This document shows, one piece after another, positions 15,807 to 60,802 of a stretch of DNA of 64,000 bases (position 1 is the first letter of the stretch; each line of letters begins with the position of its first letter). A program made the position numbers and the translations under genes. Origin of the DNA: Thermosynechococcus sp. NK55a (GTDB lineage: Bacteria > Cyanobacteriota > Cyanobacteriia > Thermosynechococcales > Thermosynechococcaceae); the NCBI RefSeq assembly GCF_000505665.1, contig NC_023033.1, forward strand, positions 372,001-436,000. Direction: 5' to 3'. The notes below the pieces were generated by a model. That model searched no databases. It was not told where the DNA came from and was given only the letters and a program-made list of their open reading frames with translations.

Positions 15807-15854
15807 CAAAATAAAAAGCCCTAGGAGTCTTGCCGTGTTTCGACCCTAGGACTT
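15807..15854 (-). terminator. Intrinsic terminator-like hairpin just upstream of rsmD
   Basis: Arms at 15816-15829 and 15842-15854 pair over about 12 positions around CCTAGG, with one mismatch, one bulge and a 12-base loop. On the minus strand the stem is followed by TTTTTATTTT, the layout of an intrinsic terminator. On the plus strand a weaker TTTTGTTT follows, so it might work both ways. There is no complete gene upstream on either strand that it would obviously serve, which is why an attenuator role for rsmD is worth considering. Confidence 0.65.
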
Positions 15855-16643
15855 TTGTTTGCGAATCACTCCTCACTAACTCAACAATACTCTGAGGGTC
15901 TGGGAACCTGTAGAGCGGCACATGACACTTTCTCAAGTGACACCTGTTTTCTAGGGGGAGGGTGCTGACTTCATTGTCGTGGCTGCTTTGATTTGGACAC
16001 AGTGGTCAGTGACCCGATCCATCAGCTCCATCAGCAAAAGACTCTACTGCGCCAACCCAACCATTCAGTTTGATTCAGGCAAAACACTGTTGTTCCTCCA
16101 GAGAACCAACGCCCGCGTTGGTAAGAATTTAATATCTCAAATAAGATAATTAAACTTATAACAAGTCTTTTAATGAAATTAAAAATCTCATAAGAGATAC
16201 TCTTCGGGAAGGGGCCAAAGGAATCGGAACAGGAGGGCCTGGCTGGCGGACTAGAGCTGTCTTAGGGGTAGGGACCCAAACGAATCAAGGCAAACCCTCG
16301 ATCTAAGGTGATCTCAAACTCTGAGCCCCCTTGAGAGGGGGGATGCTCTTCTGCCTTCGCGGTCGGTTATCCTGCTGAAGCTGTACTGCCTTGAGCTCCG
16401 CTGTAGAGGCAGGAGCCGGCGATCGTAAGAGAGTCTAAAGCAGCGCATCTGACGTGCTTGACTGATCTCGGTTGACCGATTGTGGGTGCCGCAATAGAGC
16501 AAATTTCTCAAAGCTTTTCCTAGAGCGAGTTTTAGCTGCCCTGACTCGAATAATGGACTAAAGTTGGCCTAAATTTCCTTGCTGCACAATCTCCCCTGCT
16601 CAATTGAGGAAAAAGCCAGCAAATGCTATCTTAGATAAGTTGT
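15855..16643. other. Gene-poor spacer with an AT-rich island and small hairpins
   Basis: This spacer between the rsmD terminator and tRNA-Pro holds no recognisable protein gene. It has an AT-rich patch at about 16122-16200, a perfect six-pair hairpin (16106-16121, CCAACG/CGTTGG) and a five-pair hairpin at 15926-15939. On the minus strand a GGAGG site precedes a very short open frame (16031-16087). Together with the terminator at 15807-15854 this would fit a minus-strand untranslated leader or small RNA of about 280-320 bases starting in the AT-rich patch. The rest (16200-16640) shows nothing I can support. Confidence 0.4.
16031..16087 (-). CDS. Possible 18-residue leader peptide upstream of rsmD
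   Basis: A GTG at 16087 is preceded at seven bases by a full GGAGG (16095-16099 on the minus strand) and opens 18 codons reading MFCLNQTEWLGWRSRVFC before TGA. The ribosome-binding site lies in an imperfect hairpin. It lies upstream of the terminator and rsmD in the same orientation, the arrangement of a leader peptide, but nothing proves expression. A chance match is quite possible at this length. Confidence 0.22.
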   Translation of the reverse strand: MFCLNQTEWLGWRSRVFC

Positions 16644-16717
<74 letters not shown>

Positions 16718-17716: not shown

Positions 17717-18793
17717 TTAATTTTCAATAGCTGGACTGAGAAAAGTTTCCAACTCCTTGAAATTAAATCCCATGGCTCGCAGGGCGTGCCAAAGGTGACC
17801 CTGTAGGAAGAAAAAAGCAAGGAAGAAGTGGGCATTGGCTAGCCACGCACGGGGAGTATGTTGGCCAAGGGGCAATTCAATGGTGTCTGCGAAGTAGGGC
17901 GCAATTCCCAGCTTGACTTCTAGGGGTGGTCCATAAAACGCGACCGGATAGGCGAGTGTATTCACTGCACAGAAGTAGGCGGCCACAAACCCCGCCAAGG
18001 CAATTCCCCCAAGTGAATAGGAGAGAATTGCTTCAGCATTAAACATCAGCACCTTCCGTGCCCAAGCCAACGGCGGTACAAGAATGTGCCAAATGCCACC
18101 TGCAATTAGCAAAATGGCAATGTAGATATGCCCTCCCACTAGGTCTTCCAAACTATTAATGCTGGCAAAGTGGGTTTGGTAGCCATAGATAACAAAGGGA
18201 TCCAACGTGGGCTGCGCTACAAGGCGTACCGTTTGCAAATTGGCATCGTACAACCCACCCCAGATGGTTGCTTTGAGAACCAACAGCAGGGCACCGAACC
18301 CCAAAAAGAGCAGATGATGTCCTAAAATAATGCCCAGTTGTTTTGGATCATCCCAGCGGAAGTGGAAGCGACGGGCCCGACCAGTGGCTGTACTGAGATC
18401 ATGGGGGGCACGAAAGGTATGAAAGAGCGCACCGGCCCCTAGGACAGCAGAGGAAATCAGATGCACTGCCCCAATCACAAAGTAGGGGTACAAATCCACC
18501 ACTTTACCCTCCTCGCCGATGCCAAACCCCAAGGTTGCTAGATGGGGCAGCAAAATCAGGCCCTGTTCTCCCATAGGCAGATTGGGGTTGTATTGGGAAA
18601 TTTCGTAAAGCGTAAAGGCGCCGGCCCAGAATACGGTCAGAGCTGCCTGTGCCACATGGGCGGCAATGAATAACCCTGAGAGGTTTACAAATCGGGCATT
18701 ACCGGCCCACCAATCATACTTGACGTTGGCTTGACCGTAGGTTTGTAAGCCGGCAGCCATCACAGGGGTTGGAGATTCACTGGCGATCGCCAT
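17717..18793 (-). CDS. isiA: Iron-stress chlorophyll-binding antenna protein IsiA (CP43')
   Basis: IsiA is a six-helix chlorophyll-a protein related to CP43 that forms rings around photosystem I in the thylakoid membrane under iron limitation. The 358-residue product has the family start [20 protein letters not shown], repeated His-containing helices ([69 protein letters not shown]) and the ending [21 protein letters not shown]. It lacks the large lumenal loop of true CP43, which fits IsiA/Pcb. The ATG at 18793 follows an excellent GGAGG site. Unlike in many cyanobacteria, no flavodoxin gene (isiB) follows. A terminator comes directly after the stop. Promoter motifs upstream resemble Fur-controlled iron promoters. 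Confidence 0.95.
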
Positions 18794-28430: not shown

Positions 28431-28574
28431 CTAGCTCTTACGGGCGGGTGTCCCCGTGAAGGGCTGTGCTCCTGTGGAAGGATAGTGATCATTCCGCGGG
28501 GTGAAGATGCGTCCAAATGCCTCCATCAAAAAGACCATCATACTTTGCAGTTTCTCCCGTATTGCTCTTAACAT
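28431..28574 (-). CDS. 47-residue protein of unknown function, likely a real small gene
   Basis: An ATG at 28574, preceded by AGGAG eight bases away, opens 47 codons ending at TAG (28431). The protein starts amphipathic and basic (MLRAIREKLQSMM), continues with a hydrophobic helix (VFLMEAFGRIF, about 14-24), and ends with a polar segment, NDHYPSTGAQPFTGTPARK. A helix followed by a YPxTGxQPFxG-type tail is, to my memory, shared by small cyanobacterial proteins, but I cannot name the family. It probably associates with a membrane surface. The ribosome-binding site lies in a hairpin (28584-28603) and a long folded leader precedes it, so translational control is likely. The next gene on that strand is 27.7 kb or further left, past sequence I cannot assign. 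Confidence 0.7.
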   Translation of the reverse strand: MLRAIREKLQSMMVFLMEAFGRIFTPRNDHYPSTGAQPFTGTPARKS

Positions 28575-28821
28575 AGGTCAACTCCTAAAGAAAGTGATTT
28601 AGGCTTCCGCCTGTGGCTGAATGAATGAACACCGCAGGAAAAACTCGAAACTTGCTCTACCGGAGCAACGGGATCGGACTTTGTCTCCGGGCCATTAGGT
28701 ATAGCCCTTTTCCCATGCATGGAACACACTCACAACCGGGAAAGCTCCTATAGGAGAAGATCGTTTTCCCGCCTGCAGCCCATCCATAGAAAAGGACTCT
28801 AAAGACTGTACTTTTAGTATA
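28575..28821 (-). promoter_or_regulatory. Structured leader and promoter of the 47-residue gene, with two competing hairpins at the ribosome-binding site
   Basis: A TATACT (-10 type, 28821-28816) predicts a start near 28808 and a leader of about 230 bases. In it, perfect or near-perfect stems occur at 28737-28771 (CGGGAAA/TTTCCCG enclosing the palindrome CTCCTATAGGAG), 28713-28722 (CCATGCATGG), 28689-28707 (GGGC/GCCC) and 28652-28668 (TTGCTC/GAGCAA). The last two overlap: AGGC(GGAA)GCCT at 28601-28612 and CCTAAA(N8)TTTAGG at 28584-28603. They share three bases and cannot form together, and the second buries the AGGAG. I do not match it to a known riboswitch class. The same spacer also has to hold the promoter of the plus-strand glycosidase gene. 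Confidence 0.5.
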
Positions 28822-45136: not shown

Positions 45137-48100
45137 ATGTCTATGTCGTTTCTTGAGTATCTCCATGCAGAACCCCGTCGTGTCATTGTCTTTGATGGCG
45201 CAATGGGCACAAATCTTCAGGCACAAAACCTGACGGCAGAGGATTTTGGTGGCAAGGAGTACGAAGGCTGCAACGAATATCTGGTCATTAGTCAGCCAGA
45301 GGCGGTGGCCAAAGTGCATCGCGATTTTTTGGCAGCAGGAGCCGATGTCATTGAAACGGACACCTTTGGCTCGTCTTCAATTGTTCTAAGTGAATACAAT
45401 TTGGGCGATCGCGCCTACGAAATCAGCAAGAAAGCCGCTGTGCTTGCTAAATCCGTGGCCGCTGAATTTAGCACCCCCGAAAAACCCCGCTTTGTTGCCG
45501 GCTCGATGGGACCAGGTACTAAACTGCCCACCCTGGGCCACATTGACTACGACACCCTCTACAGGGCCTTTCGCGAACAGGCTGCTGGCCTCTTTGACGG
45601 CGGGGTGGATCTCTTTATCATTGAAACCTGCCAAGATGTCCTGCAAATTAAAGCAGCCCTCAATGGGGTGATGGCCGTCTTTCAGGAGCGGGGAGAACGC
45701 CGCCCCCTGATGGTTTCCGTGACGATGGAGCAGCAGGGCACGATGCTGGTGGGCTCGGAAATTGGCGCCGCCCTGACGATTCTGGAACCCTATCCGATTG
45801 ATATTTTGGGTCTCAACTGCGCCACTGGCCCCGATTTGATGACGGAGCACATCCGCTACCTTTCGCAGCACTCCCCCTTTGTCATTTCCTGTATTCCCAA
45901 TGCCGGCTTACCTGAAAACATCGGTGGCCATGCCCACTACAAGCTGACGCCGATGGAATTGCGGCTGGCCCTAACCCGCTTCGTCGAAGACTTTGGGGTA
46001 CAAGTGATTGGCGGCTGCTGTGGCACGCGGCCGGATCATATTGCAGCCCTGGCAGAAATTGCAGCGACCCTGACCCCCAAGGCGCGATCGCCCCAACGAG
46101 TTCCCGCTGCCGCCTCCATCTACAGTCCTCAGCCCTATGACCAAGAGAATTCCTTCCTGATTATTGGTGAGCGACTCAATGCTAGTGGCTCCAAAAAATG
46201 CCGCGATCTCCTCAATGCCGAAGATTGGGATGGTCTCGTTGCCCTGGCCCGTGCCCAAGTGCGTGAAGGTGCCCACATCCTGGATGTCAACGTGGACTAT
46301 GTGGGGCGCGATGGGGTGCGGGATATGCGCGAGCTGGTATCGCGGCTGGTTACCAACGTAACGCTGCCCCTGATGCTCGACTCGACTGAATGGCAAAAGA
46401 TGGAAGCGGGTCTGAAGGTGGCCGGGGGCAAGTGCTTGCTGAACTCCACCAACTTTGAGGATGGTGAACCCCGCTTTTATAAGGTCCTAGAACTGGCAAA
46501 AACCTACGGCGCCGGCGTGGTCATCGGTACCATTGATGAAGAGGGGATGGCGCGAACGGCTGAAAAAAAGTTTGCCATTGCCCAACGGGCCTACAGGGCA
46601 GCCCTTGACTACGGCATTCCCCCCTGGGAAATTTTCTTTGACCCTCTGGCACTGCCAATTTCCACAGGGATTGAAGAGGATCGGGGCAATGGTCGAGAAA
46701 CCATTGCGGCCATTCGGCGAATTCGCGCTGAACTCCCCGGCTGCCATATTCTGCTGGGGGTTTCCAATATCTCCTTTGGCTTAAATCCAGCAGCTCGCCA
46801 AGTCCTCAACTCAATGTTTCTCCACGAGGCCATGCAGGCGGGCATGGATGCTGCGATCGTCAGTGCTGCCAAGATCCTGCCCTTGGCCAAAATTGAGCCA
46901 CAGCAGCAGCAGGTCTGCCGTGATCTCATCTACGACCGACGGCGATTTGAGGGGGAAGTGTGTGTCTATGACCCCCTTGCGGAACTGACTCGTCTGTTTG
47001 AGGGCAAGACCACCAAGCAGGATCGCTCCCCAGTGGAAAACCTGCCCCTTGAGGAGCGGCTCAAACGCCACATTATTGATGGCGATCGCCTTGGCCTCGA
47101 GGAGACCCTTGCCAAGGCCCTTGAAACCTATGCCCCCCTTGAAATTATCAATACATTCCTGCTCGACGGCATGAAGGTGGTGGGCGAACTCTTTGCCTCT
47201 GGGCAGATGCAGCTTCCCTTTGTTTTGCAGTCGGCAGAAACGATGAAGGCGGCTGTGGCCTACCTCGAACCCTTTATGGAAAAATCCGCCACCGGGGACA
47301 CTGCCAAGGGCACCGTCGTCATTGCCACCGTGAAGGGGGATGTCCATGATATTGGTAAAAACTTAGTGGATATTATCCTCACCAACAACGGCTATCGCGT
47401 GATTAACTTGGGGATTAAGCAGCCGGTTGAAAATATCATCCAAGCCTATGAGGAGCATCAGGCAGACTGCATTGCCATGAGTGGCCTCTTGGTCAAATCC
47501 ACCGCCTTTATGAAGGAAAATCTCGAGGTCTTTAATGAGCGGGGCATTACCGTTCCCGTCATTTTGGGGGGAGCCGCCCTCACCCCCAAATTTGTCTATG
47601 AGGATTGCCGGTCCACCTACCACGGTCAAGTGATCTACGGCAAGGATGCCTTTGCCGATTTGCATTTTATGGATCGGCTAATGAGTGCAAAGGCCGCAGG
47701 TCAGTGGGACGATCGCCAAGGATTTTTGGATGGTACAACGATCTCCACCCCAGAGGCAGGGAGCACACCCGCGATCGCCCCCGAACCCACCGCGGTTGCT
47801 GAACCCGACACATCAGAAGTGGTGGATACCCGCCGCTCTGAAGCTGTTGCTGTAGATATTCCCCGCCCCACACCCCCCTTCTGGGGCATTTGTCACCTCA
47901 AGCCGGATCAGATTCCACTTTCTGAGGTCTTTGCCTATCTGGATCTCCAAGCCCTGATTGCAGGTCAGTGGCAGTTTCGTAAACCTAAGGATCAAGACCG
48001 TGCCACCTACAACGTCTTCCTTGCGGAGAAGGTCTATCCCATCCTTGAGGAGTGGAAACAGCGCATCCTTGCTGAAAACCTGCTCCATCCTGAACTGATT

Positions 48101-56162: not shown

Positions 56163-56528
56163 TCCTCATAGGCGGCGGACTACCGCTTCTGAGAGAATTA
56201 TAAACATCGCTGCAAAAACCTTAAGAGTTTGCTGAGTTTCTTTAGATTTTCTCAATATTTGAGGCCAATCTAGGGATATAGACCTTTTCTTTCTAAAATT
56301 GGACTATACCCAGCACATAGGATGTTGTCCTACAACAGCTTTACAAGGTTGAGGGGTCACTGAACCCTCTAAATGGGCCTAGACCACGTTCTAATCAGCC
56401 CTGGGTAGAGTTTGAAACCCAGTTCTAGGGTGCTATACGCAGAGCTACCCAAGCTGGAGGTACGTTTATGCTGCAAGCTTTATGCGCTCTTGAGGGGATT
56501 TTCCACAAACCTAGGCTATACTTTGGGA
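56163..56528. promoter_or_regulatory. Divergent spacer between rpaA and the DUF3370 gene
   Basis: This spacer of about 365 bases holds the rpaA promoter on the minus strand: TATAAT at 56202-56197 predicts a start near 56190 and a leader of about 45 bases. A short hairpin TAGGA/TCCTA at 56318-56332 and another GAGGG/CCCTC at 56351-56369 sit further right, probably in the leader or promoter of the plus-strand gene. Neither is followed by a T-run. No gene is seen. Confidence 0.5.
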
Positions 56529-60572: not shown

Positions 60573-60802
60573 GGGGTAGTGAATAACTGACGTTTATTGA
60601 GTAGCTTAGGTAGCGATCGTACCATGTTGGGCAAGTTCCCCTGTCGCCAACAGCAGCGATACCGCTGCGCTGCCAAGAAGTTAAGCCTCTGAAAACCGCT
60701 AAAGTCACCGTGGGCGAGAATCACTTCCCCCAGGCCATAATTTCTAGAAAAGGGCGGTATTCTGGAAAGTATGAGCCATTTGGGATCAGAAGGATTGCAA
60801 CG

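Follow-up and report, generated by a model that had tools for sequence, protein, structure and literature searches.

A probable atpT gene of Thermosynechococcus sp. NK55a and the likely transposon origin of its long leader

On the minus strand of the window (the whole 64,000-nucleotide stretch of Thermosynechococcus sp. NK55a DNA analysed here, in which position 1 is the first letter), a 47-codon open reading frame follows a long leader in which two overlapping hairpins reach its ribosome-binding site. The locus raises the questions of what the small gene encodes and whether its leader is a regulatory RNA or has another origin. The best explanation, to which we assign a probability of about 0.8, is that the gene is atpT, encoding AtpΘ, that the leader consists largely of two nested MITE insertions, and that the hairpins are not a selected switch. 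The product would be a small amphipathic protein acting on FoF1 ATP synthase to keep it from running in reverse, with hydrolysis of ATP, under a weak proton gradient such as that in the dark. Transcription would begin at about 28809 from a conserved promoter just upstream, originally with a leader of about 32 nt. A first miniature inverted-repeat element of about 100 bp would have inserted at a TA near the transcription start and undergone decay; a further copy from this family would later have inserted at a TA within it, giving the present 235-nt leader.

28431–28574, minus strand: 47-codon gene, probable atpT (AtpΘ), assigned from the open reading frame, the family profile and the fit to published work (PMC5126843, PMC9241938).

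The open reading frame runs from an ATG at 28574 to 28431, with AGGAG located 7 nt ahead of the ATG, and is a true gene. It occurred as a single copy in all 11 genomes of the genus at 79–100% identity, without internal stops in any of them, and its variable sites fell far more often in third positions (37 of 47) than in first and second positions (15 of 94). A search with a profile built from 22 relatives, with the consensus core EAxGRIFxPxxDHYPATGVQPFxG, found the family in 292 of 390 cyanobacterial genomes. Family proteins measured 42–59 aa, compared with 48 aa for Norf1 of Synechocystis. The sequence-only reading had described the 47 residues as looking conserved, and this holds both within the genus and across cyanobacteria. 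Among the 98 genomes with no family match, 63 belonged to group f2 (64 genomes of 1.6–3.7 Mb, one of which had a match), and genomes of group f5 were also mostly without a match; f2 appears to comprise marine picocyanobacteria and their relatives, and f5 the JA group. Searches of Pfam, NCBIfam and PDB with the 47-aa protein returned no match.

28816–28821, minus strand: predicted -10 box, TATACT, at a position conserved in the genus.
28575–28604, minus strand: rest of the original short leader with the ribosome-binding site, alignable with the ~32-nt leaders of genomes G002 and G010.

The promoter region was conserved in 11 upstream regions and ended in TTTTTTATACTAAAAGTACAG, with variants in G005, G002 and G010; the -10 box read TAAACT in G005 and TATAGT in G002, G010 and the outgroup genus (G012). 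The start predicted behind this box, at about 28809, agrees with the start near 28808 proposed earlier, both promoter and start being predictions for this organism. Simple scans revealed neither a sigma-70 promoter with a -35 box at the gene nor a terminator 3' of it. A two-repeat HLR1 (RpaB) promoter site found no support, as its best scores of 11–13 out of 16 were equalled by 27–90% of shuffles; G010 was the exception among the scored genomes (4% of shuffles), with G002 and G012 left out of the scoring.

Comparison of the 11 aligned genomes revealed that TTAGGAGTTGACCTATG was invariant, and that the distance from promoter to this sequence fell into three classes. Counted from predicted transcript starts, the leader was about 234–245 nt long in G000, G003, G004, G005 and G008, about 105–145 nt in G001, G006, G007 and G009, and about 32 nt in G002 and G010. 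The outgroup has an apparent leader of about 30–32 nt behind its TATAGT box, and since it too appears short, the short leader is probably the ancestral form.

28700–28801, minus strand: younger MITE-like element, with inverted ends, a TA duplication, a match of E 4.1e-18 to a profile built from 28 other copies, and an empty site in four relatives.
28605–28810 (ends approximate), minus strand: the older MITE-like element, decayed and split by the younger copy.

The extra leader length is transposon sequence, in the form of two nested miniature elements. When the leader was used as a query, dispersed partial matches were obtained elsewhere in the genomes, and their alignment defined an element of about 102–104 bp, TACAGCCCTTTTC...GAAAAGGGCTGTA, with 13-bp terminal inverted repeats (TACARCCCTTTTC) and TA at both ends. 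Nine genomes (G000, G001 and G003–G009) contained 10–29 copies each; no matches were found in G002, G010 or G012, and the exact element ends were absent from G002 and G010. The younger insertion is matched by an empty site, CAGCCTT-TA-CCTAATGA, in G001, G006, G007 and G009. This empty site (CAGCCTTTACCTAATGA) has one TA in the four relatives, whereas the filled site has two, which is the footprint of transposition; the empty sites may represent either the original state or precise excision.

The older insertion is well supported, from alignment statistics, as a decayed copy of the same family. Global alignment of the leftover ~105 nt with the 28 copies gave a z score of 6.4 (none of 1000 shuffles as good), and the interior, with the suggestive ends removed, still gave 3.55 (equalled by 2 of 1000 shuffles). 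The right end of the older copy, as seen in relatives, matched at profile position 102 (E 0.03–0.05, weak alone). With both elements removed, the remaining leader could be aligned to that of G002 (p 0.001) and of G010 (p 0.0085).

Bacterial MITEs that duplicate TA are of the kind mobilised by IS630/Tc1-mariner-type transposases, and we place the element in this class on account of its TA duplication. It resembles such MITEs in length (~104 bp), 13-bp inverted repeats, TA ends, copy number in the tens, the single TA at its empty site and the lack of an open reading frame; it differs in that neither an autonomous partner nor a matching family name was found. A non-exhaustive search revealed no autonomous partner or other transposase source, and the only pair of facing ends inspected, spanning 1.5 kb (G004:2537119–2538651, L151), was discarded as an autonomous element because it contained no open reading frame long enough for a transposase. 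The window contains more partial copies, at 60687–60758 (minus strand; nhmmer E 1.2e-8) and, weaker, at 47343–47399 (plus strand; E 0.0023) and 56280–56355 (plus strand; E 0.007).

It is unlikely, though conceivable, that the lineage with this leader of transposon origin has co-opted it, so that atpT mRNA is stabilised or translated differently with no two-state switch involved; the long stem that the inverted ends of the element can form would be one possible route. This stem, formed by the younger element, dominates the predicted G000 fold, and the insertion has been kept in five species; however, four relatives without the younger element and two without either carry the same gene. In Synechocystis, atpT mRNA has a half-life of 33 min in darkness but 1.6 min in the light, and the determinant of this stability was assigned to the coding sequence or 3'UTR, not to the 5'UTR, since it was not transferred to gfp by fusion with the native 5'UTR (PMC9241938). 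The native Synechocystis 5'UTR does raise expression, and promoter plus 5'UTR are needed for dark induction. We consider it unlikely that a miniature transposon has been domesticated in part of the genus as an RNA control element of the gene for an ATP-synthase brake; if it has, the species, whose leaders on this gene measure about 32, 135 and 235 nt, may differ in their dark response.

The 47-aa protein is very probably AtpΘ (AtpT, formerly Norf1), the inhibitor of FoF1 ATP-synthase ATPase activity, as judged from its size, amphipathic helix, distribution among lineages and the Synechocystis Norf1 residues that can be derived from published primers. Synechocystis Norf1/AtpΘ has 48 aa and is widely conserved in cyanobacteria, with reported absences in marine picocyanobacteria, Gloeobacteria and thermophilic Synechococcus JA strains (PMC5126843); a later paper stated likely homologs for all available cyanobacterial genomes and described the protein as amphipathic and as preventing ATP hydrolysis by FoF1 (PMC9241938). 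The gaps of the present family in f2 and f5 parallel the published Norf1 absences (PMC5126843). An N-terminal amphipathic helix was predicted at residues 7–24, with a muH of 0.47 here and 0.78 in G012 (range 0.47–0.78). The norf1 probe primers (PMC5126843) contain one open frame that reads EMLQDLM (residues 5–11) and ends in VNSTEE-stop, provided that, by our own arithmetic, the stated 168 nt include a 24-nt T7 tail; EKLQSMM of the 47-aa protein fits EMLQDLM, a comparison confined to primer-derived residues rather than the whole of AtpΘ. The two systems differ in their 5'UTRs, which measure 143 nt in Synechocystis and 235 nt, largely transposon-derived, here. In Thermosynechococcus sp. NK55a the protein would have the same function as in Synechocystis. 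It is quite improbable that the family represents a different conserved small protein of cyanobacteria, since size, distribution, amphipathicity and primer-derived residues all fit AtpΘ.

An AtpΘ-like tail was also observed at the C terminus of proteins of about 95 aa whose N-terminal part is a Nif11 domain (PF07862; E values of 1.4e-12 and 7.6e-12), in some genomes. Full-length fusions of this type occurred in 10 of 145 sampled cyanobacterial genomes, among others at the following loci.

L028, 1312–1599, plus strand: Nif11-AtpΘ fusion.
L080: Nif11-AtpΘ fusion.
G012:C5:39537–39818: Nif11-AtpΘ fusion.
G018:C52:9296–9577: Nif11-AtpΘ fusion.

In G034, G079, G099 and G018 the fusion was the only match to the AtpΘ family, and it may therefore replace atpT in these four genomes. 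Nif11 and AtpΘ were named together in none of the papers of the literature collection searched.

28584–28603, minus strand: hairpin A, CCTAAA/TTTAGG, covering the AGG of AGGAG.
28601–28612, minus strand: hairpin B, AGGC/GCCT, spanning the junction between element and leader.

Both hairpins noted in the sequence-only reading are present in the minus-strand sequence. Hairpin A (CCTAAA-TCACTTTC-TTTAGG, 28603–28584) holds the AGG of AGGAG inside its 3' arm, and shares three bases (28603–28601) with the 4-bp hairpin B (AGGC-GGAA-GCCT, 28612–28601). A perfect stem of at least 6 bp over the ribosome-binding site was found in 0.8% of shuffled upstream sequences, but 3 of the window's 37 sites resembling a Shine–Dalgarno sequence (SD) likewise have a stem of at least 6 bp over them. 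In isolation, the predicted energies at 37 and 55 °C were -3.3 and -1.15 kcal/mol for hairpin A and -5.0 and -2.72 kcal/mol for hairpin B. Hairpin A appeared in the predicted fold that included the start of the coding region and was missing from the minimum-free-energy fold computed for the leader by itself; hairpin B appeared in neither. With the coding start included, the AGG of the SD was predicted to be paired in most genomes, including short-leader G002, in which its partner is CCTA just ahead of the ATG, and partial occlusion of the SD by such pairing is possible.

In hairpin B, the final bases of the old element are paired with bases of the original leader, and the hairpin therefore exists only in the nine genomes with that insertion; its four pairs showed no variation among them. 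Hairpin A belongs to the original leader. It was likewise invariant in the nine genomes, but was weaker in G002 and G010, with four of six pairs left in each. All changes in hairpin A were one-sided, and no compensatory change was detected in either hairpin among the genomes of the genus, so that the comparison with relatives yielded none of the covariation looked for. The loops varied in sequence while the arms did not (nine genomes), which is suggestive at most of some selection on the stems, given the few independent changes. The loop of G009 differs in length by 8 nt with arms unchanged; just 5' of the start codon, this genome (L009) has an 8-nt tandem duplication (CTTTAGGA), by which TTTAGGA at the ribosome-binding site is present twice. 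Hairpin A is best explained as a weak helix of the original leader and hairpin B as a product of the insertion junction.

An Rfam search, at gathering scores and with E values up to 10, gave only chance-level matches in the leader region, in keeping with the earlier remark that the leader matched no known RNA class. Elsewhere in the window, Rfam identified three RNAs.

18178–18355, plus strand: IsrR antisense RNA (109.6 bits).
15809–15882, minus strand: Cyano-1 RNA (50.1 bits).
16644–16717, plus strand: tRNA.

Further stems proposed for the leader are present in predictions, but as a whole it shows no more structure than its dinucleotide shuffles do (z -0.89 for the 235-nt leader, with 43 of 200 shuffles scoring as well; z -0.32 for its 3' 129 nt). 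The layout had been likened to a riboswitch, RNA thermometer or small-RNA target; pairing is indeed predicted over part of the SD, as in SD-masking thermometers and riboswitches, but conserved architecture, covariation and a known class are all lacking here. A cis-acting switch in which A and B exclude each other, so that the SD of atpT is either masked or exposed, is very unlikely: the overlapping arms, the mostly paired AGG, the invariant arms with variable loops and the mainly post-transcriptional control of atpT in Synechocystis (PMC9241938) would suit it, but it is opposed by the missing two-sided changes, the absence of B and weakening of A in G002 and G010, the 32–245 nt range of leader length, the lack of fold excess or of an Rfam family, the transposon origin of the variable part and the dependence of B on a transposon junction. 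We found no evidence of a dedicated regulatory switch in the leader, and infer that it has no regulatory role.

The reading of the locus as atpT behind nested insertions names a probable ATP-synthase inhibitor gene in Thermosynechococcus, which serves as a model genus for photosynthesis structures. It also takes one candidate off the list of riboswitches, since the leader now has a concrete origin. Control of atpT in Synechocystis is mainly post-transcriptional, and the natural series of leaders on one gene in this genus offers a test of the role of the 5'UTR in that control.
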